NCBI GenBank assembly: GCA_017938625.1
Contig: JAGBBD010000063.1
Span: forward strand, 1 to 64,000
Direction of reading: 5' to 3'
Source of the DNA: Oscillospiraceae bacterium
GTDB taxonomy: Bacteria > Bacillota > Clostridia > Oscillospirales > Oscillospiraceae
DNA: 64,000 nucleotides
Part shown: piece after piece, positions 27,413 to 50,211 of the stretch
Layout of the letters: each line of letters opens with the position of its first letter
How positions within the stretch are numbered: the stretch's first letter is position 1
Notes under the pieces: generated by a model
Seen by the model: only the letters and a program-made list of their open reading frames with translations
Told to the model about the DNA's origin: nothing
Database searches by the model: none
Made by a program: the position numbers and the translations under genes

Positions 27413-27441
27413 TTGCAATACATGGAAATAAGTGTTATACT
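27413..27441 (+). promoter_or_regulatory. Promoter of the precursor-peptide cassette
   Basis: TTGCAA (27413-27418), 17-bp spacer, TATACT (27436-27441). The predicted 5' leader to the peptide start is about 120 nt and contains a possible 17-codon frame at 27462-27515. Confidence 0.7.
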
Positions 27442-27569
27442 TACAAAGGAATTGTGTTATTATGCCTATTTGTGGATTTTGGCACATTTTTACCGAAAAC
27501 GGTTATGCAGCTTGAACGGAAACGGGACGGCTACTACATAACAAATATTAAGAAAGGAGATCAAGCAAA

Positions 27570-27668
27570 ATGAAGAAGTACGAAGCTCCTGTCGTTGAAG
27601 TCGAGATCTTCACCGTCGGCGATGTCATGAACGCCTATCTGTGCGAGACCGAGACCGATATCCTGTAA
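27570..27668 (+). CDS. Putative RiPP precursor peptide, 32 residues
   Basis: A 32-codon gene with a near-perfect ribosome site (AAAGGAGA, 27553-27560). The N-terminus MKKYEAPVVEVEIF contains Tyr4-x-x-Pro7-x-Val9, which is the YxxPxL-like leader motif recognised by PqqD/B1-type RiPP recognition elements. Thr15 followed two residues later by Gly17 mimics the Thr(-2)/Gly(+1) cleavage syntax of lasso precursors, but the residues at ring positions 7-9 after Gly17 are Tyr, Leu and Cys, and the first acid is at position 10, so a standard lasso ring is not possible. The C-terminal half is acidic and holds one Cys (25), one Tyr (23) and two late Thr (27, 29). A kinase-like gene, a PqqD-like gene, a peptidase and an exporter follow. 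The precursor role is inferred. Confidence 0.65.
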   Translation: MKKYEAPVVEVEIFTVGDVMNAYLCETETDIL

Positions 27669-27675
27669 GATCGGG

Positions 27676-27710
27676 AAAAGTCCCCGGCAGTTCTCTGCCG
27701 GGGCAACTTT
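27676..27710 (+). promoter_or_regulatory. Stem-loop directly after the precursor gene
   Basis: CCCCGGCAG (27682-27690) and CTGCCGGGG (27695-27703) around a TTCT loop, extended by AAAGT/ACTTT pairing with a two-base bulge. No proper T run follows, so it more likely protects or partly attenuates the transcript, favouring precursor over enzyme expression. Confidence 0.65.
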
Positions 27711-27766
27711 CGTAAACTGCTTTTGATTCTTAATTAGAATTAAAATGACATACATTAGGAGCAACT

Positions 27767-28477
27767 ATGGAACATACCTACAAGATCGCCGGACTGACAG
27801 TCAATATGGATACCTTTGGCTTTGTAGGCAGCAGAGCGCGGCCCTACGAGGTCGAGTACACTTCTGCGCCCGACATGACTGTGGAGAACAAGTGGGAAAA
27901 AGTAAAGCAGATGCATCCGGAAGTGACGGATCCGTTCTGTGAGTATACTGCCACGGCGATCGTGTTTTATGACAAACTTCTGGATTTCCAGGGTATGCTG
28001 CTCCATTCCTCCGCCGTGATCATGGATGGCAAGGCATACTTGTTTACTGCCGATTCCGGCACGGGAAAGTCCACTCACACTTCTTTATATCGCCGCTACT
28101 ACGGTGATGATCGTGTGCGGATCCTCAATGACGACAAACCTGCTCTGCGGCTGGAAGACGGTGAATTCTTCGCCTATGGCACTCCGTGGAGCGGAAAGAC
28201 GGATCTCAATCTGAATTTGCGTGTACCACTGGGCGGCATCTGCGTGCTGGAGCGCGGCGAACACAATGAGATCGAAAGACTGACCGGCAGAAAAGCACTG
28301 AAAAGACTTTTGCCGCAGACGGTCAATCCAAACGATAATGACAAAATGGAAAAGCTTCTGGATCTGATGACCGCTCTGCTGGAGAAGGTTCCTGTCTGGA
28401 TCATGAAGTGCAATATGGATCCGGATGCTGCCAGAGTATCTTACGAGGCGATGTCCGGAATTGGAAAAGGAGATTAA
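27767..28477 (+). CDS. HPr-kinase-like protein (peptide-kinase candidate)
   Basis: A 236-residue protein of the HprK C-terminal kinase fold. The P-loop FTADSGTGKSTHTSL, the following ILNDDKPALR acidic pair and the GTPWSGKTDL loop match the HprK-related proteins found in RiPP clusters; related kinases phosphorylate the C-terminus of some lasso peptides. It lacks the N-terminal HprK sensor domain and is not the metabolic HPr kinase. Ribosome site AGGAGC. It lies 98 bp after the precursor gene and 2 bp before the PqqD-like gene. Whether it phosphorylates the peptide is inference; the peptide has Thr and Tyr but no Ser. Confidence 0.8.
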   Translation: MEHTYKIAGLTVNMDTFGFVGSRARPYEVEYTSAPDMTVENKWEKVKQMHPEVTDPFCEYTATAIVFYDKLLDFQGMLLHSSAVIMDGKAYLFTADSGTGKSTHTSLYRRYYGDDRVRILNDDKPALRLEDGEFFAYGTPWSGKTDLNLNLRVPLGGICVLERGEHNEIERLTGRKALKRLLPQTVNPNDNDKMEKLLDLMTALLEKVPVWIMKCNMDPDAARVSYEAMSGIGKGD

Positions 28478-28479
28478 CC

Positions 28480-28743
28480 ATGAAGCTGAAATCCGGTTTG
28501 ACCCTGCGCCAGATCGCAGGAGAAAATGTGGTCCTTGCTTCCGGTGCAGACACCGAGCTTAAGGGCATGATCACGCTCAATGAAACTGCGTGCCTTCTGT
28601 GGCGCTGCCTGGAAAAGGGTGCTGAGGTCGCTGACCTTGCAGATGCGCTGCTTGCAGAGTACGAGGATGTGGATCCTGCAACTGCTGCAGCCCATGCAGA
28701 GGCTTTTGCTGCAAAGATGAAGGAGCTGGATCTTCTTGTCTGA
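28480..28743 (+). CDS. PqqD-family RiPP recognition element
   Basis: An 87-residue PqqD-like winged-helix protein: an N-terminal beta region ending in MITLNETACLLWRCLEKGAE, which is the PqqD signature (LNExAxxLW), and C-terminal helices. Such proteins bind the leader of a precursor peptide and present it to modifying enzymes. The ATG follows AAGGAG and the end overlaps the peptidase gene by 8 bp. It corresponds to protein B1 of lasso systems. Confidence 0.88.
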   Translation: MKLKSGLTLRQIAGENVVLASGADTELKGMITLNETACLLWRCLEKGAEVADLADALLAEYEDVDPATAAAHAEAFAAKMKELDLLV

Positions 28744-29206
28744 ACTCCGCGCGGATCTGGAGGAACTGCTGCCTGTGATGCAGGAGCAGTTTGCCAAAGG
28801 TGAAAGCTTTGTGATCAGACCGGGTGGTATCAGCATGCTGCCCACCGTAAGGCCGGGAAAGGATGCCGTAGTGCTGTCCGCCCTGCCGCAGCAGCTGAAA
28901 AAATACGATCTGCCGTTCTATCGCAGACCGGACGGATCTTTTGTGCTCCACCGCATCGTAGAGGTGGGGGAGACCTATACCTGTGTAGGAGACGGTCAGT
29001 TCCGTTTTGAGCCGGGGGTCCGGCAGGAGCAAATGATCGCGCTGGCAACAGCCATCATTCGCGGCAAACGCGAGATCTCGGTCAACGCACCGATGTATCG
29101 GCTCTACTGTAAGATCTGGCATCACACCAGAAAAGTTCGCCATGTGATCAAATGGCCCAAGTATTATCTTCGGAGGAGCCTTTCATGGCTGAAGTCAAAA
29201 CTTTAA
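28736..29206 (+). CDS. S24/S26 signal-peptidase-fold protein (leader peptidase candidate)
   Basis: A 156-residue protein with the serine motif GGISMLPTVRPGKDAVVL (SMxPT) and the later strand YRRPDGSFVLHRIVEV. The residue where bacterial type I signal peptidases carry their catalytic Lys appears to be His (LHRI), as in ER-type Sec11/SipW enzymes, so a Ser-His dyad is likely. No N-terminal membrane anchor is present; the C-terminus is strongly basic. The TTG start at 28736 (MSELRADLEELL) is 10 bp behind AAGGAG. It may cut the leader of the 27570 peptide in place of the transglutaminase-like B2 protease of lasso clusters; this is inference. Confidence 0.7.
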   Translation: MSELRADLEELLPVMQEQFAKGESFVIRPGGISMLPTVRPGKDAVVLSALPQQLKKYDLPFYRRPDGSFVLHRIVEVGETYTCVGDGQFRFEPGVRQEQMIALATAIIRGKREISVNAPMYRLYCKIWHHTRKVRHVIKWPKYYLRRSLSWLKSKL

Positions 29207-30858
29207 GCTGGCTGCTGAAGCGGATCCGGCGGCATATTCCCATGCTGCTGGTGCTCATATTGGCAAATGCTGGCAGCGCGCTGCTCAGCGTCCTCTTTGC
29301 TCTCGGAACTCGTGAGGTCATCAATAGTGCCACCAGCTGCAGCCTCGAGGTCTTTTTGAGGGCCTGCGGACTGCAGTTGTCTATTATTGCAGGCTCTATT
29401 CTGTGCACGACGGTCAGCCGTCATCTGACGGCAAAGCTGACGGATGTTCTGGACAGAGACTGGAAAAAGAACTTGTTCCATGAGCTGCTGCAGGGCGAGT
29501 ATTCCGATGTTTCCGCCTATCACAGCGGAGAACTGATCAATCGATTGAATAATGACGTCAAGGCGCTTGATGACGGACTTGTGACGGCGATCCCCAATCT
29601 GATCTCCCTTGTTGTACGCCTTGGCTCTGCTGTGGTGACCTTGTTTGCCATGGAACCCAGACTGACAGGCGCTTTGGTCATCCTCGGTGTTGCCGCCATG
29701 CTGGTCACCGGTGTGGTACGTAAAAACCTCAAGAGCCTTCATAAGCGTGTCAGTGAGTCCGATGGCCGTGTCTTGAGCTTTTTGCAGGAAAACCTGGAAA
29801 AGCTTCTGGCTGTGCAGGCGATGGATCTGTCCGAACAGGTGGAAAAGCGTGCCAACGGTCTCCTGCAGGAGCGCTATCTTGTGCAGCGCCGCCGCCGCAG
29901 AGTGACCCTAACAGCCAATACCTGTGTCAGCGCCCTGTTTTATCTGTGCGGCTTTGCCACCTTGGTCTGGTGCAGCTACGGTCTGCTCCGCGGCAGCATG
30001 GATTTTGGTACTTTGACTGCCATGATGCAGTTGGTCAATCAAGTGCAGGCTCCCTTTGTCAATCTCTCCGGCTTCCTGCCCAAATACGCTGCCATGCTGG
30101 CAGCGGCGGAGCGTTTGAGAGAGCTGGAGCGTATTGCACCGCAGGAATCCTCCGTTATCGAGGATGTGCCTGCTTACTACAGCGCCATGACAGGCTTTGC
30201 TGTTGAGGATCTGACCTTCGCTTATGAAGAGGACAAGATTCTGGAAAACGTTACCTTTACTTTGCCGAAGGGTACCTTCAGTGCCATTACCGGCCCTTCC
30301 GGCATCGGCAAAAGCACGCTGCTGAAGCTGATGCTGGGCGTCTATACGCCGCAGAACGGCGGCATCTATGCCGTTTCCGGCACGCAGTCCCAGCCACTTG
30401 ACCGCGGCACAAGAAGACTGTTTGCTTATGTTCCTCAAGGAAATTTCCTTTTCAGCGGAACTTTGCGGGAAAATTTATTGATGATCGCCCCGGATGCCGG
30501 GGAACAGGAATTGAAAGAAGCTATCTATGTCAGCGCCATGGACCGGTTCATGGATCAGCTGCCGGATGGATTGGATACTGTCATCGGAGAGCACGGTGAA
30601 GGTCTTTCCGAAGGACAGGCACAGCGGGTGTCCATTGCCCGTGCGGTACTCAGCGGTGCACCTGTGCTGCTTTTGGATGAAGCGACCTCTGCGCTGGACG
30701 GTGAGACAGAAACTGTAGTCCTGCAGCGGATCTGCGCCATGAAGAGCCGCACCTGCATTGCTGTGACCCATCGCCCTGCGGCGCTGGAGCAGGCAGATTA
30801 TCAGCTGTGTGTCAATGATCGGAAAATACAGGTCGTCCCTTTGAGACCGGAACAATAG
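29185..30858 (+). CDS. ABC exporter, fused permease-ATPase
   Basis: A 557-residue half-transporter of the ABCB/MsbA type. Residues about 1-300 hold six hydrophobic segments (first: HIPMLLVLILANAGSALLS). The ATPase domain has Walker A GPSGIGKST, signature LSEGQAQRVS and Walker B VLLLDEATSAL. There is no N-terminal C39 peptidase domain, so leader removal must come from elsewhere. The ATG at 29185 has GGAGGA upstream; the gene overlaps the peptidase gene by 22 bp. It is the likely exporter of the peptide, and its stop is only 14 bp before the capsule operon. Confidence 0.9.
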   Translation: MAEVKTLSWLLKRIRRHIPMLLVLILANAGSALLSVLFALGTREVINSATSCSLEVFLRACGLQLSIIAGSILCTTVSRHLTAKLTDVLDRDWKKNLFHELLQGEYSDVSAYHSGELINRLNNDVKALDDGLVTAIPNLISLVVRLGSAVVTLFAMEPRLTGALVILGVAAMLVTGVVRKNLKSLHKRVSESDGRVLSFLQENLEKLLAVQAMDLSEQVEKRANGLLQERYLVQRRRRRVTLTANTCVSALFYLCGFATLVWCSYGLLRGSMDFGTLTAMMQLVNQVQAPFVNLSGFLPKYAAMLAAAERLRELERIAPQESSVIEDVPAYYSAMTGFAVEDLTFAYEEDKILENVTFTLPKGTFSAITGPSGIGKSTLLKLMLGVYTPQNGGIYAVSGTQSQPLDRGTRRLFAYVPQGNFLFSGTLRENLLMIAPDAGEQELKEAIYVSAMDRFMDQLPDGLDTVIGEHGEGLSEGQAQRVSIARAVLSGAPVLLLDEATSALDGETETVVLQRICAMKSRTCIAVTHRPAALEQADYQLCVNDRKIQVVPLRPEQ

Positions 30859-30872
30859 CGAAAGGAACTGCT

Positions 30873-31640
30873 ATGAGAGAAGAAGTAAACAATCGTCAGG
30901 AAGTAGAAAGTGAGATCGACCTTCAGGAAATGCTGTTTTCCTATCTGCACCACTGGTGGGTCATCGCCCTGTGTGTGCTGGCTTTTGTCGGTATGGCAAT
31001 GGCTTATACGAACTTGTTTGTAACTCCTTTGTATCGCGCAAGCGTTACGATCTATGTCAACAACTCTATCAATACCAATGTGGAGTACATTGCAAGTACC
31101 GACCTGTCTGTTTCTCAGAAACTGGTCGATACCTATGTGAATATCATCACCAGCGACACCGTTCTGAACAAGGTCGCTGAGGAAAAGCAGCTGCCTTATT
31201 CTGCCGGTCAGCTTCGCTCCATGCTGACTGCCGAGCAGGTGGATAAGACTGAGATCTTCAAGGTCTTTGTCAGTAATCCCAGTCCCCAGATGGCAGCCAA
31301 GATTGCCGATGCTATTGCCGATGTTGCACCCGGTGAGATCCGTAACTTTGTTGAGGGTTCTTCCACCAAGATCATCGACTATGCCAAGGTGCCCACTTCC
31401 CCCTATTCTCCCAACTATGTGAAGAATGCGGCCATCGGTTTCCTGGCAGGTGCTTTTGTGGCGATCGCTTATCTGACCATCCGCTACCTTCTGGATGTTC
31501 ATGTCAACGATGCCGAGGATCTGGAGAGAATGTTCGAGTATCCCGTTCTGGGTCAGATCCCCGATATTATGTTGGTGCGTTCCAAGACGAGAGGCGCGTA
31601 TGCCAAGTATGCGGAAGAAGCCGGCGGCGAGAGTAAATAA
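30873..31640 (+). CDS. Wzz/CpsC-type polysaccharide chain-length and kinase adaptor protein
   Basis: A 255-residue protein with two membrane segments (WWVIALCVLAFVGMAMAY near residue 29 and AAIGFLAGAFVAIAYL near 190) flanking an extracellular Wzz domain. In Gram-positive bacteria this CpsC/YveK protein activates the cytosolic tyrosine kinase encoded next. First gene of the capsule block, 14 bp after the ABC exporter with an AAAGGA ribosome site. Confidence 0.92.
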   Translation: MREEVNNRQEVESEIDLQEMLFSYLHHWWVIALCVLAFVGMAMAYTNLFVTPLYRASVTIYVNNSINTNVEYIASTDLSVSQKLVDTYVNIITSDTVLNKVAEEKQLPYSAGQLRSMLTAEQVDKTEIFKVFVSNPSPQMAAKIADAIADVAPGEIRNFVEGSSTKIIDYAKVPTSPYSPNYVKNAAIGFLAGAFVAIAYLTIRYLLDVHVNDAEDLERMFEYPVLGQIPDIMLVRSKTRGAYAKYAEEAGGESK

Positions 31641-31668
31641 CCTTACAGCTATAACTGGAGTGTGAAAC

Positions 31669-32649
31669 ATGTCAATGTCAAAGTCATTTTTGAAATTGTT
31701 TAAGAAAACCAAGAAAAAGACCGTGACCAGATCCAGAAGCGCACAGCTGCTTAGTGACCGTAAGGCGCTGCTCTCCTCCAAGAGCAACTTCTTTGTCCGC
31801 GAGGCATACAAGGCTATGCGTACCAATGTCAATTTCTCCATTGCAGACGACAATGATTGCCATGTATTGCTGGTCACCTCCTCTTTGCAGAGTGAGGGTA
31901 AGAGTACCACGTCCATCAATCTGGCTCGTTCTTATGCCGAAAACAATGACAACCGTGTTCTGCTGATCGACTGCGACCTGCGTAAGCCCAAGCTGGCGCG
32001 CCTGTTGGAGCTCAGCGCCACTGCCGGTCTGAGCAACGTGCTGGTCAAGCCTCAGCTGTTGGAGCAGGCGATCATTCCTTCCGGCACGGATAATCTGGAT
32101 GTTCTGCTGTCCGGTGATATCCCCCCCAATCCCTCTGAGCTGCTGGGCTCTGTGAGAATGCACCAGATGCTGGAGGAAATGAAGACAAAGTATAATTACA
32201 TCATCATCGATACGCCTCCCATCAACATGGTCACCGATGCCATGGTTCTGGCACCTCATACTGACGGTGTTCTGATGGTGGTGCGTGCCGGTATCTCCGA
32301 ACGCGGTCCCGTTGCCCACGCTGTGGCACAGCTGGAGTATGCCCAGGCGAAGATCCTTGGCTTTGTGCTCAACGGTGTGGATCTGGAGCGTAAGCGCAAG
32401 TATCCTTATGGCCGTTATCGTTATCAGCAGTACCGCAACAGCTTCGGTAAAATCTATGGCTACGGCGGCTACAGCAAGTACAGCGGCTATAACACCGGTT
32501 ACGGCGGCTATGGCGGCGGTTACGGCAGAGGCTATGGCTACGGCTACGGTTACGGCTATGGCTACGGCTATGGTCAGAACGATGTTTATCCCGAGGAAGA
32601 GATTCCTGCTGTGACCGAAATGCCCGATGGCAGCGGCAAAAGACAATGA
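31669..32649 (+). CDS. CpsD/CapB-type tyrosine autokinase with Gly-Tyr tail
   Basis: A 326-residue BY-kinase. Walker A SLQSEGKSTTSINLAR, Walker A' VLLIDCDLRKPKLARLL and Walker B YIIIDTPPINMVTDA are all in place. The C-terminal tail (from about residue 244, DNA 32398-32590) carries about twenty tyrosines, most in a Gly-Tyr-Gly-Tyr run, far more than the few tyrosines usual in this family. These are the likely autophosphorylation sites controlling capsule assembly. Overlaps the phosphatase gene by 4 bp. Confidence 0.93.
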   Translation: MSMSKSFLKLFKKTKKKTVTRSRSAQLLSDRKALLSSKSNFFVREAYKAMRTNVNFSIADDNDCHVLLVTSSLQSEGKSTTSINLARSYAENNDNRVLLIDCDLRKPKLARLLELSATAGLSNVLVKPQLLEQAIIPSGTDNLDVLLSGDIPPNPSELLGSVRMHQMLEEMKTKYNYIIIDTPPINMVTDAMVLAPHTDGVLMVVRAGISERGPVAHAVAQLEYAQAKILGFVLNGVDLERKRKYPYGRYRYQQYRNSFGKIYGYGGYSKYSGYNTGYGGYGGGYGRGYGYGYGYGYGYGYGQNDVYPEEEIPAVTEMPDGSGKRQ

Positions 32650-33353
32650 CGGATCTGCATACCCACATCCTGCCGGGTGTGGATGACGGTGCAAAAACGG
32701 TGCAGGATAGTCTGGATCTGCTTCGGGCTCAACGTGAGCAGGGCGTGGATCGTGTGGTTCTGACGCCTCACTACTATCCGGATCGTGAGCCGTTTGAGGT
32801 GTTTTTACAGCGCAGAGAGCAGGCATGGCAGCAGCTGAATGCTGCCGTCCGGGCACTGCCGCAGGAAGAGCGCAGCAGCATGCCTGCCATGGTGCTGGGA
32901 GCGGAGGTCGCCTATGTTCCGGGATTGGAAGCTATGGCAGATCTGCGCCGCCTGTGTATTGGAAATACAAGAAATCTTCTTTTGGAGCTGCCGTTCTTTG
33001 CATGGAGCGCACAGATGATTCGTCAGCTGTATGCCTTTCTGGAAAAGGGTGGTGTGACTCCCATTCTTGCTCATATTGAGCGGTATATCCCTTGCCAGCC
33101 ACGGAAGCTCTTTCAAGAGATTCTGGATCTGGGGCTGCCGGTGCAGGTGGGGACGGATATGCTGCACGGTATGTTTTCTCCTGCCATGAAGCTGCTCAAG
33201 CAGGGCAGGGGGCATTTGATCGCGTCTGATTGCCACGATCTGCTTTCACGCAGACCCAATCTTGGTGATGCCTATGAATTGGCAGAAAAAAAGCTTGGGG
33301 TTGACCGCTGCGTGGAGATAGCTGAGCTGACAGCTCAGTTGACTGAAGAATAA
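32646..33353 (+). CDS. CpsB/YwqE-type PHP tyrosine phosphatase
   Basis: A 235-residue PHP-fold metal phosphatase that removes phosphate from the CpsD-type kinase. The N-terminal DLHTHILPGVDDGAKT metal motif, TPHYY and the later SDCHD complete the site. Overlap with the kinase (ATGA) couples their synthesis. Confidence 0.92.
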   Translation: MTDLHTHILPGVDDGAKTVQDSLDLLRAQREQGVDRVVLTPHYYPDREPFEVFLQRREQAWQQLNAAVRALPQEERSSMPAMVLGAEVAYVPGLEAMADLRRLCIGNTRNLLLELPFFAWSAQMIRQLYAFLEKGGVTPILAHIERYIPCQPRKLFQEILDLGLPVQVGTDMLHGMFSPAMKLLKQGRGHLIASDCHDLLSRRPNLGDAYELAEKKLGVDRCVEIAELTAQLTEE

Positions 33354-35953: not shown

Positions 35954-37678
35954 ATGAAAAGAACGCTGAAGCGGATCGCAGCCTTGTTTGTGATTGTATG
36001 CCTGACCCTGACGATGTTTACCGGTCTTGTCAGTGCAGCAGGAGTCAATGCTGCTGTGCAGAAGACTCTGGCAGATGGTGCAAGATCTGTTGGATTCTCC
36101 AGAGCCTATATCGACGACTATCATTTTGTGGATGCCGGTCGCGCAGGTGATGCTGTCACCGCCAAACTGCCCCATGATCTGAGTGTGCCCGGCCGTACTG
36201 TGGCTGTTGCCATTCAGGCTGTGGATGCAAACGGCAATGCTCTGGCAGGCCACCATGTGCACTATATCCTGGGTGAGTACAGCAACGGTGCTGTGACTGT
36301 CACCTACCAGGAGGCAGGCTGCCGCTACTTTGCTATGATGCCTATTCAGGGCGTTCTGGAGCAGGGTACCATCCACCATCTGGAAACTACCGGCAGAAAC
36401 AATTATGACGGAACCTATCAGATCTACATTGAGACCAGACTCTCTATGTCCGATGATCTGGCAATGTATGTTATCGCCAATAAAACCGATGAGAAGCTGC
36501 TGAACATGCGCTTTACCTGCTATCTGGAAAGCGATGTCATTGAAAGCGAGCACAATGTGGATCTGCAGGATCTGGTCTTTGAAGACCCTCAGGGCATGTA
36601 TGATCTGATCGAAAAAGAAGCCTATGATGAGGGCGTTATGATCAAGTACAAGCTCAACAGGGAAGAATGGGCCTCTTGGCGCTATATGGCTGCGGCTGAG
36701 CTGAAGGATGTGCTGCAGACTGAAGTGACCATGTACTGCGATGCCCGTGTCAGAGAAGCAGAGCTGCGCGAAGCAGCAAACTATGATGACGAGGTCTGGT
36801 GCCATGGTCATCTGGAACTGACCTACGAGCCCAATGGCATGAAGACGGCCATTCCTTCCGTTAATCTGAAGACCATTCTGATTCCTGCTACCATGGATTA
36901 TATCGTTCTGGATTATGATGGCAGAGATCCTGTCTGGGGCGAAGAGGACGATGATGACATCTGGGGCGACGAGGATGACCGCGAACTGGCTCCTGTGCCC
37001 GGCGCACTCAACGGCAGCGACCACGTTGCTTATGTGATCGGCTACGAGGATGGCTCCGTCAGACCCAACAACAACATTACCAGAGCGGAAGTTGCTACCA
37101 TCTTCTTCCGTCTGCTGAAGGAAAATGTCCGCAAGGCCAATATGACCCAGGAAAATGAATTCTCCGATGTTTCCGAAGGTCAGTGGTTCAACTGCGCCAT
37201 CTCCACCATGGCTGTCATGGATGTGCTCAACGGCTATCCCGATGGTACCTTCCGTCCTAACGCACCCATCACCCGTGCTGAGTTTGCTGCCATCGCTGCC
37301 CGTTTTGACGGCAGAGAAGCTGACAAGCTGGCTGCCTTCAAGGACATCAGAGGGCATTGGGGCGCTGAGGAGATCAGCCGCGCATACTTCAACTGCTGGA
37401 TCGAAGGCTATCCCAACGGTACCTTCTGCCCCGACCAGGATATCACCAGAGCGGAAGCTATGACACTGGTCAACCGTGTGCTGCATCGTAACCCTGAAGA
37501 GCCCGAAGATCTGCTGCCCGGCATGGCTGAATGGTGGGACAACATGAACGAAAAAGCATGGTACTATCTGGCTGTGCAGGAAGCTACCAACAGCCATGAC
37601 TATGCCAGAAAGAACAGCGACTTCGAGTACTGGAAAGAGCTGGAAGCTATCCCCGACTGGTCTTTGCTTGAAAAATAA
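35954..37678 (+). CDS. SLH-domain surface protein
   Basis: A 574-residue secreted protein: signal peptide at residues 1-30 (LFVIVCLTLTMFTGLVSAAG), an unrecognised region of about 320 residues, an acidic Asp/Glu-rich hinge near residue 325 (WGEEDDDDIWGDEDD) and three C-terminal SLH repeats (GYEDGSVRPNNNITRAE, GYPDGTFRPNAPITRAEF, GYPNGTFCPDQDITRAEA). SLH domains bind pyruvylated secondary wall polymer. The gene sits in the capsule operon with AGGAGG at 35939-35944, so it may display or anchor the polymer. Confidence 0.9.
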   Translation: MKRTLKRIAALFVIVCLTLTMFTGLVSAAGVNAAVQKTLADGARSVGFSRAYIDDYHFVDAGRAGDAVTAKLPHDLSVPGRTVAVAIQAVDANGNALAGHHVHYILGEYSNGAVTVTYQEAGCRYFAMMPIQGVLEQGTIHHLETTGRNNYDGTYQIYIETRLSMSDDLAMYVIANKTDEKLLNMRFTCYLESDVIESEHNVDLQDLVFEDPQGMYDLIEKEAYDEGVMIKYKLNREEWASWRYMAAAELKDVLQTEVTMYCDARVREAELREAANYDDEVWCHGHLELTYEPNGMKTAIPSVNLKTILIPATMDYIVLDYDGRDPVWGEEDDDDIWGDEDDRELAPVPGALNGSDHVAYVIGYEDGSVRPNNNITRAEVATIFFRLLKENVRKANMTQENEFSDVSEGQWFNCAISTMAVMDVLNGYPDGTFRPNAPITRAEFAAIAARFDGREADKLAAFKDIRGHWGAEEISRAYFNCWIEGYPNGTFCPDQDITRAEAMTLVNRVLHRNPEEPEDLLPGMAEWWDNMNEKAWYYLAVQEATNSHDYARKNSDFEYWKELEAIPDWSLLEK

Positions 37679-40389: not shown

Positions 40390-41445
40390 ATGAAAATGGA
40401 TACGACTTTTACAAATAAGACCTTATTGATCACCGGAGGTACCGGCTCTTTCGGCAATGCTGTTCTCAACCGTTTCCTGGAAACGGATATTGGTGAGATC
40501 CGCGTGTTCTCCCGTGATGAAAAAAAGCAGGACGATATGCGCCATGAGTTCCAGGTACGTATGCCCGAGCATGCAGGTAAGATCAAATTCTTCATCGGTG
40601 ATGTGCGGGATCTGGCATCGGTCAAGAATGCCATGCATGGTGTGGACTATATTTTCCATGCTGCAGCGCTAAAGCAGGTGCCGTCTTGTGAGTTTTTTCC
40701 TATGGAGGCAGTCAAGACCAATGTGATCGGTACCGATAACGTGCTGACTGCTGCCATTGACGAAGGCGTTAAGTCTGTTATCTGCCTGTCTACGGACAAG
40801 GCAGCGTACCCCATCAACGCCATGGGTACGTCCAAGGCCATGATGGAGAAGGTAGTCGTTGCCAAGAGCCGCACGGTGTCACCGGAAAAAACCAAGATCT
40901 GCTGCACACGTTACGGCAATGTTATGTGCTCCCGCGGCTCTGTGATTCCTCTGTGGATCGAGCAGATCAAGGCGGGCAATCCCATTACCATTACTGAGCC
41001 TACCATGACCAGATTTATTATGTCCTTGGAAGAGGCAGTGGATCTTGTCCTGTTTGCATTCCAAAACGGCGTCAGCGGCGATATCCTTGTGCAGAAGGCA
41101 CCTGCCTGCACCATCGAGGTGCTGGCAAAGGCTGTGACGGGCCTGTTTGCGCCGAACCACGAGATCAAGGTGATAGGCATCCGTCATGGCGAAAAGCTCT
41201 ATGAGACCCTTTTGACCAATGAGGAGTGTGCCAATGCCACAGACCTCGGTGACTTCTATCGTGTGCCCTGTGACAAGAGAGATCTCAACTATGACAAGTA
41301 TTATTCTCAGGGGGATGTGGAGCGCAATCCTCTGACGGAGTTCAACTCCAACAATACCCAGCTTTTGGATGTGCCGGCTGTGCAGGAAAAGCTTCTGTCT
41401 TTGCAGTATATCCGTGATGAGCTGGCGGCGTGGGAGACAAAATGA
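40390..41445 (+). CDS. capE: UDP-N-acetylglucosamine 4,6-dehydratase/5-epimerase
   Basis: A 351-residue cytosolic SDR enzyme of the CapE/WbjB/FnlA group. NAD site LLITGGTGSFGNAVLNRFL, AALKQVPSCEFFP and the catalytic STDKAAYPINAMGTSKAM region. It carries out the first step of UDP-L-FucNAc synthesis. CapF lies two genes downstream; the third enzyme, CapG, is not in the window. Overlaps the nucleotidyltransferase gene by 4 bp. Confidence 0.93.
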   Translation: MKMDTTFTNKTLLITGGTGSFGNAVLNRFLETDIGEIRVFSRDEKKQDDMRHEFQVRMPEHAGKIKFFIGDVRDLASVKNAMHGVDYIFHAAALKQVPSCEFFPMEAVKTNVIGTDNVLTAAIDEGVKSVICLSTDKAAYPINAMGTSKAMMEKVVVAKSRTVSPEKTKICCTRYGNVMCSRGSVIPLWIEQIKAGNPITITEPTMTRFIMSLEEAVDLVLFAFQNGVSGDILVQKAPACTIEVLAKAVTGLFAPNHEIKVIGIRHGEKLYETLLTNEECANATDLGDFYRVPCDKRDLNYDKYYSQGDVERNPLTEFNSNNTQLLDVPAVQEKLLSLQYIRDELAAWETK

Positions 41446-42599
41446 TGGAGAAAACTCTGAATGCAGTGCTCCGCCTTGTCCGCAGTGCATTGTGCTGTGA
41501 ACCGGCAGTTCTACCGGAACCGTTGGATCTGGAGCAGGTGGCGCAGTTGGCTGTCCTGCATCAGATCGAAGCACTTGTCTATGACGGTGCGATCCGCAGC
41601 GGCATTTCCAAGCAGGAGCCTGCCATGAAACAGCTGTTTCAGGCATACTGCCGCGCGGCTGTGAGAAGTGATCTGCAGCTGGAAAATCTTAATACGCTTT
41701 ACAGGAGCTTTGATGCGGCGAAGATCGACTATCTGCCTTTGAAAGGCTGTATCATGAAGGGTCTGTATCCCAAGGCAGAACTGCGTGCTATGAATGATGC
41801 GGATATCCTTATTCGTGTGGAACAATATGATGCCATCAAGCCTTTGTTGGAGAAGCTGGAATATCGCTTCCTTGCAGAGAGCGACTGCGAGCTTAAGTGG
41901 CGGACAAAGGGACTGTATCTGGAACTTCACAAGCGTTTGATCCCGTCCTTTGTCAAGGATTTTTATGCCTACTTCGGTGACGGTTGGCAGCTGGCGGTGC
42001 CTGCACAGGGCAGCCGATATGAGATGAGCAGGGAAGATGAATTTCTGTTCCTGTTCACTCACTTTGCAAGACACTACCGCGAAGGCGGAGTCGGCATCCG
42101 TCATATGGCGGATATTTGGTACTATCGTCTGAAAACACCGGAACTGAAGAGTGGTGTGGTGGAGGATGTTTTGAAGAAAATGTCATTGGATACCTTCTAT
42201 CACAACATTCTAAAAACCCTTGAAAACTGGTTTGAGGGTGGTGAACAGACACAGATCACTGAGAAGATCACAGAGTATATCGCAAACAGCGGTTCTTTCG
42301 GCACACACGAGACCAAGGTGCTGGCTGACGGATTGCGCAAAGGCGGCAGACGGAAAAATGTGTGCAGACTGCTGTTCCCGCCTTTGGATGATATGCAGTA
42401 TTCTTACCCTGTATTGCGCAAGTGCCCTGCATTGCTGCCTGCCATGTGGATCTACCGCGGCGGACGGCTGGCGCTGTTTGGCAGAGATAGGATCAAACGC
42501 CAGCAGGAACGTCTTGGCACCATGGAAACAGAAAAAATGGATGCATTTGAAAAAAGCCTGCGCGATGTCGGCTTGGGCTTGGAATTTGAGGTAGATTGA
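41442..42599 (+). CDS. PF14907-type nucleotidyltransferase family protein
   Basis: A 385-residue protein. Residues about 85-150 carry a nucleotidyltransferase-like core: YLPLKGCIMKGLYPKAELR followed by MNDADILIRVEQYD with the metal-binding Asp-x-Asp, matching the uncharacterised NTP_transf_5 family. Relatives occur inside or next to lasso-peptide clusters of Firmicutes. It sits between capE and capF with ATGA overlap on one side and 1 bp on the other, so it is co-translated with the capsule genes. Substrate unknown: a sugar or the exported peptide are both possible. Confidence 0.8.
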   Translation: MMEKTLNAVLRLVRSALCCEPAVLPEPLDLEQVAQLAVLHQIEALVYDGAIRSGISKQEPAMKQLFQAYCRAAVRSDLQLENLNTLYRSFDAAKIDYLPLKGCIMKGLYPKAELRAMNDADILIRVEQYDAIKPLLEKLEYRFLAESDCELKWRTKGLYLELHKRLIPSFVKDFYAYFGDGWQLAVPAQGSRYEMSREDEFLFLFTHFARHYREGGVGIRHMADIWYYRLKTPELKSGVVEDVLKKMSLDTFYHNILKTLENWFEGGEQTQITEKITEYIANSGSFGTHETKVLADGLRKGGRRKNVCRLLFPPLDDMQYSYPVLRKCPALLPAMWIYRGGRLALFGRDRIKRQQERLGTMETEKMDAFEKSLRDVGLGLEFEVD

Positions 42600-48924: not shown

Positions 48925-50211
48925 GTGGAACGACTGGCACAGCTTCTGTGGGGCGCGCCGATGATGCTTCTGTTGTTGTTTACAGGAATGGTACTGACTA
49001 AGCGTACCCGTTTCGTGCAGCTCAGAAGATTGCCTGCTGCTCTTTCTCAGATGGGAAAGAGCCTGCGGCAGGAGCGTTCCGGTTTCCGGGCAGTCTGTAC
49101 CGCATTGGCTGCAACGGTCGGTACGGGGAATATTGCAGGTGTGGCAGGTGCCATCGCGCTGGGTGGGCCCGGTGCGGTGTTCTGGATGTGGGTGGCGGCA
49201 TTTTTCGGTATGGCGACCAAATATGCAGAGGTGTCCCTTGCCATGCGATACCGTACAGAGCAGGGCAGAGGCGGCCCGATGTACTATATTGTAGGAGGCA
49301 TGGGGAAGCGTTTCCGACCTTTGGCGACGTGCTTTGCATTTTTTGCGGTACTGGCATCTTTTGCCATGGGGAATATGGTGCAGATCAACACCATTACCGG
49401 CGCTGTGATAGCAGCGCTGCCTTCTGTAGATCCACGATGGACAGGGCTTGCCGTTGGTCTGGCGGCAGCTTTTTTGGTGGGTCTGGTCACCTTGGGTGGC
49501 GTCAAACGCATCGGTCGGGTAATGGAACTTTTAGTACCTGTCGTGGCAGGTGTCTATGTTGTTTCCATGATGGCTGTGATCGTCCTGCATTGGGGTGCGG
49601 TGGGAAATGCTCTGTCTGCGATCGTTACAGGGGCTTTTTGCCCACGGGCTGTTTTGGGCGGCGGTGTGGGGATCGGGCTGCGGCAGGCGATCTGCTGGGG
49701 TGTGAGCCGCGGTGTGTTTTCCAATGAGGCAGGATTGGGCTCAGCGCCCATCGCCCATGCAGGCTCCAAAGCACGGCCGGAAGAACAAGGATTACTGGGG
49801 ATCTTCGAAGTGTTTCTGGATACCATCGTGCTGTGTACTTTGACAGCCCTTGCCATTTTGACAAGCGGCATCGCTCTCCCATATGGGACAGCCGTGGGGG
49901 CACAGCCTGCCATAGATGCCTTGGAAACGGTGTTTGCATCAGGTGCGCCGTGGATCTGTACGCTGATTCTGGGGTCGTTGGCGCTGGCTACCATGATAAG
50001 CTGGCAGCTTTACGGTCTGCGATGTGCCGAGTATCTCTGGGGCAGGAGTGGGGCGAAAGGCTATGCTGTTTGTTATACAGCAGTAACGGTACTGGGGGCG
50101 ACTATGGATCTGTCCAACGCATGGGCGCTGGCAGATGTGTGCAATGGGCTCATGTGTCTGCCCAATCTGATCGCGCTGTTAGTGCTGGGCGGCAAACATA
50201 AATCTGACTGA
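48925..50211 (+). CDS. Alanine/glycine:cation symporter (AgcS family)
   Basis: A 428-residue polytopic carrier. The signature GTGNIAGVAGAIALGGPGAV with ATKYAEVSLAMRYR, and GVSRGVFSNEAGLGSAPIAH further on, are diagnostic of sodium:alanine/glycine symporters. GTG at 48925 with a GAGGTGA site is chosen; the spacing is short and an upstream start cannot be excluded. Faces the OCD-family gene in the same direction. Confidence 0.9.
   Translation: MERLAQLLWGAPMMLLLLFTGMVLTKRTRFVQLRRLPAALSQMGKSLRQERSGFRAVCTALAATVGTGNIAGVAGAIALGGPGAVFWMWVAAFFGMATKYAEVSLAMRYRTEQGRGGPMYYIVGGMGKRFRPLATCFAFFAVLASFAMGNMVQINTITGAVIAALPSVDPRWTGLAVGLAAAFLVGLVTLGGVKRIGRVMELLVPVVAGVYVVSMMAVIVLHWGAVGNALSAIVTGAFCPRAVLGGGVGIGLRQAICWGVSRGVFSNEAGLGSAPIAHAGSKARPEEQGLLGIFEVFLDTIVLCTLTALAILTSGIALPYGTAVGAQPAIDALETVFASGAPWICTLILGSLALATMISWQLYGLRCAEYLWGRSGAKGYAVCYTAVTVLGATMDLSNAWALADVCNGLMCLPNLIALLVLGGKHKSD

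Follow-up and report, generated by a model that had tools for sequence, protein, structure and literature searches.

A probable linear polyphosphorylated peptide cassette in a Clostridial genome, with remote precursors beside secreted-protein genes in its relatives

The DNA analysed here (the window: 64,000 nucleotides of an Oscillospiraceae bacterium, positions 1 to 64,000 of contig JAGBBD010000063.1, assembly GCA_017938625.1) contains five genes, all on the + strand, encoding in order a short peptide (A), a kinase of the HprK fold (K), a PqqD-like recognition element (RRE) of the kind that serves ribosomally synthesised and post-translationally modified peptides (RiPPs) (B), an S24/S26-fold peptidase (S) and an ATP-binding cassette (ABC) exporter (D). 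We read this set, with a probability of about 0.8, as a Clostridial RiPP cassette of the type that makes linear polyphosphorylated peptides (LPPs), with a probable sixth gene (N) 10.6 kb downstream in a capsule locus and a chemistry that would follow the LPP pathway in outline. It would be a variant of that type, and two points stand out: in the genus the core lacks serine, and across the order many remote precursors are paired with secreted proteins.

LPPs were worked out in Paenibacillus. For the lpp cluster of Paenibacillus alginolyticus DSM5050, Popov et al. (Nat Commun, May 2026, PMC13381572) describe, in this order, a precursor, an HprK-like kinase (LppK), an RRE (LppB), a SipW-like leader peptidase (LppS), a pump (LppD) and a nucleoside triphosphate (NTP) transferase (LppN); such clusters often lie in capsule loci, cleavage is RRE-dependent, and multiple phosphates are placed on core Ser3. 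The window shares with LPP clusters the order A-K-B-S-D, a discrete RRE, an HprK-like kinase, a signal-peptidase-like leader peptidase, an MsbA-like exporter, a YxxP leader, a setting in a capsule or extracellular polysaccharide (EPS) locus and the lack of a cyclase or B2 protease. In the open-access literature we found the gene set described only in that paper. The initial annotation had proposed a peptide bound by the RRE, possibly phosphorylated, cut by the signal-peptidase-fold protein and exported without cyclisation, forming a class outside the standard RiPP list. The outline corresponds to the LPP pathway, although phosphorylation cannot be carried over unchanged; and because that pathway, with the same gene order, has been published, the class is no longer an undescribed one, sound as the deduction was.

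The peptide gene (27570..27668; 32 codons, 32 amino acids) has an AAAGGAG ribosome site upstream and is followed by four packed genes, as initially annotated: kinase (27767..28477), RRE (28480..28743, 2 bp after the kinase gene), peptidase (28736..29206, with a TTG start and overlapping the RRE gene) and exporter (29185..30858, overlapping the peptidase gene). Sequence searches were clear for the RRE (PF05402, E 4.1e-16) and unclear for the kinase and the peptidase. In the kinase the P-loop residues G98, G100 and K101, together with N121, D123, K124 and P125, are invariant in 16 of 16 sequences; its sequence gave no match in the PDB, and identity was settled by fold, the structure model built from the 16-sequence alignment (predicted local distance difference test, pLDDT, 94.6) matching PEPCK (1oen, E 1.5e-6) and HprK (1kkl, E 1.1e-5) in Foldseek. 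The RRE family profile (A2) matched TbiB1 (1.3e-10), TfuB1 (1.1e-8), PbaB1 (9x90, 5.6e-8) and LppB (9x8z, 3.5e-5) in the PDB, and by our own mapping the leader-contact residues N33 and F74 of LppB correspond to N34 and F76 of the window RRE. The peptidase has S33, H72 and D86 invariant in 19 of 19 sequences (the assignment of Asp as catalytic is ours), and its model (19-sequence alignment, pLDDT 93.9) shows no N-terminal membrane helix; Foldseek places LexA, lambda repressor and UmuD first (LexA best, E 2.1e-3, probability 1.00) and signal peptidases lower (SpsB, 1.3e-2; the human signal peptidase complex). Its sequence resembles SipW/archaeal-type signal peptidases weakly (E 0.0012 and 0.006), its fold clearly. 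The exporter carries membrane (PF00664) and ATPase (PF00005) domains in one chain; TIGR02204 was its best family, below that family's cut-off.

The window precursor has the arrangement Y4-x-x-P7-x-V9, F14 and D18-V19 followed by a variable C-terminal part, and is without serine. It differs from the local peptide of another species of the genus (G004; the source genome is G000) at one of the first 20 residues and at seven of the last 12, which indicates a conserved leader and a variable core. The consensus of 18 Clostridial precursors reads MKKxYExPxxEIxxFxxEDVITxS, and 63 non-redundant sequences, kinase-adjacent and remote, were aligned to it: [Y/F/W]xxPx[LVIFAM] is present in 53 of the 63, and the LPP motif YxxPx[V/L/I] occurs in the window leader at residues 4 to 9. 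One column holds Ser in 53 of the 60 sequences that reach it; the window and local G004 peptides have Tyr there (Tyr23 in the window) and L015 has Glu, while in L021, L034, L106 and L147 the Ser stands one place further on. A second, remote G004 precursor (L200:36 onward, G004 contig 45) has the usual DIITSS; the gene after it has, by eye, a signal-peptide-like start. A search of the window for a second precursor gave three other weak open reading frames (ORFs), none looking real.

The whole set recurs in G004 (identity 75% for the peptide, 75% for the kinase, 76% for the RRE, 64% for the peptidase and 78% for the exporter) and its presence there places the cassette beyond chance. G004 is the sole relative in the genus found to carry it, an RRE search of six further genus genomes (G001-G003, G005-G007) giving no match. 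The strong promoter initially annotated ahead of the peptide gene proved to be a pair of hexamers, TTGCAA-17-TATACT (27413..27441, + strand), whose occurrence alone is at chance level (1 observed against 0.9 expected); identical hexamers with identical spacing precede the homologous gene in G004. The 98 bp between the peptide and kinase genes contain a predicted RNA hairpin (27669..27730, + strand) with the stem CCCCGGCAG/CTGCCGGGG, which also recurs in G004; the folding energy of 27660-27730 is -27.9 kcal/mol (z -3.8). The hairpin is a candidate attenuator or mRNA end that would keep precursor mRNA in excess.

Beyond the genus, 394 genomes of the order were surveyed, of which 135 are kinase-positive (a profile match at E 1e-15). 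Eighty kinase loci were taken from the upper part of the kinase match list and 102 loci were used in all: kinase, RRE and peptidase genes stand in the order K-B-S on one strand in 49 of the 80 and 62 of the 102. Conservation of the small gene next to the others, which the initial annotation had made a test of its proposal, gives a mixed result: it holds beside the cassette in G004 and L015, but only 23 of 102 loci (15 of the 80 fetched by kinase; 17 of the 62 with K-B-S) include a leader-like gene within the fetched stretch, and in many relatives such genes lie elsewhere in the genome. In 69 chosen genomes (six of the 49 positives had supplied profile rows, and all 20 negatives were one family) the leader profile matched 45/49 kinase-positive and 3/20 negative genomes at E 1, and 41/49 and 0/20 at E 0.01. 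Across the order at E 0.001, 81 of 135 kinase-positive genomes match as against 12 of 259 negative ones (p 2e-34), or 67/121 against 12/259 (p 1e-28) once the row-supplying genomes are removed; the matches are mostly not beside the kinase. The NTP transferase family NTP_transf_5 likewise accompanies the kinase (119/135 against 32/259 at E 1e-10, p 6e-52). For the kinase, leader and NTP_transf_5 searches alike, all positive genomes were recorded, although the tables of individual matches are cut at their lower end.

The window holds one gene of this family (41430..42599, + strand; PF14907, E 1.1e-40), among capsule/EPS polysaccharide genes 10.6 kb downstream of the cassette, and it is the only match to the family in the source genome at E 0.1. 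That LppN belongs to this Pfam family is our assumption; on that assumption the gene is probably a sixth component of the pathway, absent from the initial annotation.

Many of the remote precursors share a neighbourhood. A first pass covered 19 hand-picked remote regions and one G004 region, a biased set in which all 22 of 22 partner genes had a crude signal peptide; the remaining 15 loci were added later. Of 34 remote loci, 32 were usable (L174 was incomplete and L176 lay beside a kinase), some of them close kin (for example L143/L146) and thus not all independent. No more than 60 bp separated the precursor from a preceding gene on its strand that encodes a crude signal peptide in 22 of the 32, and no more than 400 bp in 25, as compared with 34 of 633 background genes (all of at least 150 amino acids) within 60 bp (p 1e-18); signal peptides were called by a simple hydrophobicity criterion of our own, which also flagged 40 of the 143 remaining ORFs in these regions. 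The seven misfits are L207, L209, L210, L215 and L216 (no signal peptide in the partner under this criterion), L208 (no partner gene) and L211 (contig end). Partner proteins include a subtilase with LRR_5 repeats, a cohesin protein, a Big_4 protein and an SLH protein; ten that were scanned have no common Pfam or NCBIfam family (four have no Pfam match), and BLAST of the last 160 residues linked several in small groups with no single common domain. The precursor-partner pair occurs twice in one stretch in L183, L184 and L189, as if duplicated as a unit. The same layout is found at several kinase-adjacent precursors (for example L015, L027, L063, L089, L090, L112 and L117) and is lacking at others (for example L030, L094 and L103); the window and G004 precursors are exceptions, lying 250 and 276 bp behind glgA. 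No report of this pairing was found in the open-access literature.

Several observations weigh against an LPP-type cassette. Neither local peptide, in the window or in G004, contains the Ser that an LPP phosphoserine would need, and in Paenibacillus the S3T and S3Y variants were not phosphorylated by LppK (PMC13381572): phosphorylation of the window peptide is therefore uncertain. Px9Fx[T/A], the cleavage half of the Bacilli leader (cut after FET), occurs in none of the 63 precursors, the window's included (first 34 residues). The RRE family scores higher against the lasso proteins TbiB1, TfuB1 and PbaB1 than against LppB, and LppB D70, which holds the leader Tyr, maps (by our own alignment) to His72; the Ser-His spacing of the peptidase is 39 as in LppS, whereas His and Asp are 14 apart as against 25 in LppS. 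An exporter lies directly behind K-B-S in only 20 of 62 loci, two of the closest cassettes (L014 and L016) have no recognised precursor, and the NTP_transf_5 gene is not adjacent to the cassette. At E 1e-3, 54 of 135 kinase-positive genomes have no leader match and 12 kinase-negative genomes do, and the co-occurrence counts pool all families, so that shared ancestry may be partly responsible for them. The window departs from LPP systems in its leader (F-x3-D-[V/I] in place of Px9Fx[T/A]), its core (Tyr23, no Ser, a predicted 12 residues or so against 45), its LppN-like gene at a distance, its host (Clostridia rather than Bacilli) and, in its relatives, the many remote precursors paired with secreted-protein genes.

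Gene content, folds, leader conservation, co-occurrence and pairing are observed; the chemistry that follows is proposed, as are action in trans and a role for the product. Transcription from its own promoter would yield much peptide, while the hairpin would reduce transcription that runs on into the genes for the enzymes. The leader would be bound by the RRE through Y4-x-x-P7-x-V9, and the HprK-fold kinase would phosphorylate the core, on Ser in relatives and here on Tyr23, a Thr or not at all. The LppN-like enzyme may put a sugar or nucleotide onto the phosphate: according to PMC9266682, the hexoses on the phosphorylated serine of pseudomycoidin depend on an annotated nucleotidyltransferase, which makes a sugar a reasonable guess. 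The signal-peptidase-fold enzyme, soluble according to its model, would cut the RRE-presented leader near M20-N21 (if, as in LPPs, the target is core position 3), and the exporter would release the core as a short linear peptide, some 12 residues long.

Whether the cassette might instead be a degenerate or split lasso cluster, its cyclase and B2 protease lost or encoded elsewhere, was considered and rejected as the main explanation. The cluster has neither the macrolactam cyclase nor the B2 protease that define lasso clusters, as initially annotated: SGG[LFVIM]D[ST][ST] is absent from all window frames of at least 150 codons, PF13471 (B2) has one match in the genome, below cut-off (20.3 against 26 bits), and all Asn_synthase matches above cut-off fall in a single frame of 557 codons on a different contig. 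That frame, the RRE profile's closeness to lasso proteins and the YxxP motif, shared with lasso leaders, speak for such a cluster, and residue spacing would permit Ala22 to close a ring with Glu28 (position 7) or Asp30 (position 9); the tail left over would be just two to four residues, and the Asn-synthase-like motif was flagged in one of 102 loci (L063). This origin is very improbable. Lasso peptides of the paeninodin/pseudomycoidin type share an RRE, an HprK-like kinase, an NTP transferase, an exporter and a [Y/W]xxP leader with the window, which differs in having no cyclase or B2 nearby, a signal-peptidase-fold protease, and Y rather than W in the motif. An HprK-like kinase is also combined with a PqqD-like protein in SynChlorMet and HPr-rel-A cassettes, on which the open-access literature search gave nothing; the NCBIfam families ScmC/ScmD, HprK_rel_A and PqqD_rel_X match the window only below their curated cut-offs (E 8e-5 to 0.034), and the window cassette differs in having no radical S-adenosylmethionine (SAM) gene. 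The single CX3CX2C motif of the window, at 49596, is in a 241-residue frame 19 kb away.

If the local peptide were a relic or had another role, the true substrates would be Ser-containing precursors elsewhere in the genome. We regard this as unlikely, yet the most serious competitor: G004 has its DIITSS precursor on another contig, leader-like genes are remote in many relatives, and the local peptides of both species have no Ser. Against it, both species retain the hexamers of the promoter-like site, the ribosome site, the hairpin and the leader, the core has changed mainly by replacements, as fits an active, diversifying precursor, and no second precursor was found in G000 at E 1; G000 is 71% complete, so that genome-wide absences are not proven. 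That the small ORF is no gene, and that the K-B-S-D operon has a different substrate, is hardly credible: the ORF is short and the stretch fetched for most K-B-S loci lacks a leader-like gene, but start, ribosome site, length and leader are kept in G004, and the leader is common to all 63 non-redundant sequences.

An LPP-type reading extends a family so far characterised in Bacilli to gut Clostridia. The K-B-S machine of the relatives probably also serves precursors encoded elsewhere, many of them directly behind genes for secreted surface proteins, an arrangement that suggests a function at the cell surface or capsule rather than antibiotic activity. More tentatively, and at somewhat less than even odds, the order may possess a genome-wide phosphorylation system that works in trans on numerous small precursors, most of them encoded immediately after a large secreted surface protein, with the phosphorylated peptide, possibly glycosylated, accompanying that protein or tethering it to the capsule or envelope, and with the acceptor of the local peptide changed from Ser to Tyr in this genus. 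LPP function becomes testable: should precursors be paired with specific secreted proteins (subtilase-LRR, cohesin, Ig-like, SLH), they probably act at the cell surface. Searches limited to a few kb around the enzymes can miss leader-like genes.

In the window, a Wzz-like gene (30873-33353) begins 14 bp past the cassette and is followed by what we take to be tyrosine-kinase-like and phosphatase-like capsule genes; 5 kb past the cassette (35954-37678) is a gene for a secreted protein whose repeats look SLH-like by eye. Among the kinase loci, L027 (11150-13555) and L031 (10869-13109) have a radical SAM gene, confirmed by Pfam Radical_SAM, beside a YxxP precursor, as does L085 by motif: the three possibly form a radical-SAM-modified branch. 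In L103 and L120 leader-like precursors with a common GLTAS tail and two cysteines lie downstream of the peptidase gene, near an ORF with a radical-SAM-like motif. A different kind of small peptide (MFSMPEIKK..., MYEAPKKSKINFSS...) occupies the precursor position upstream of the kinase in L020 (1176-1286) and L080. Plasmids gave three weak kinase matches, of which L201 was looked at: on Butyrivibrio fibrisolvens plasmid pNP243 (NZ_CP146964.1; L201:8629-10652) a kinase, a 57-residue YxxP peptide, a PqqD protein and an S24/S26 peptidase adjoin pssD/pssE glycosyltransferases.

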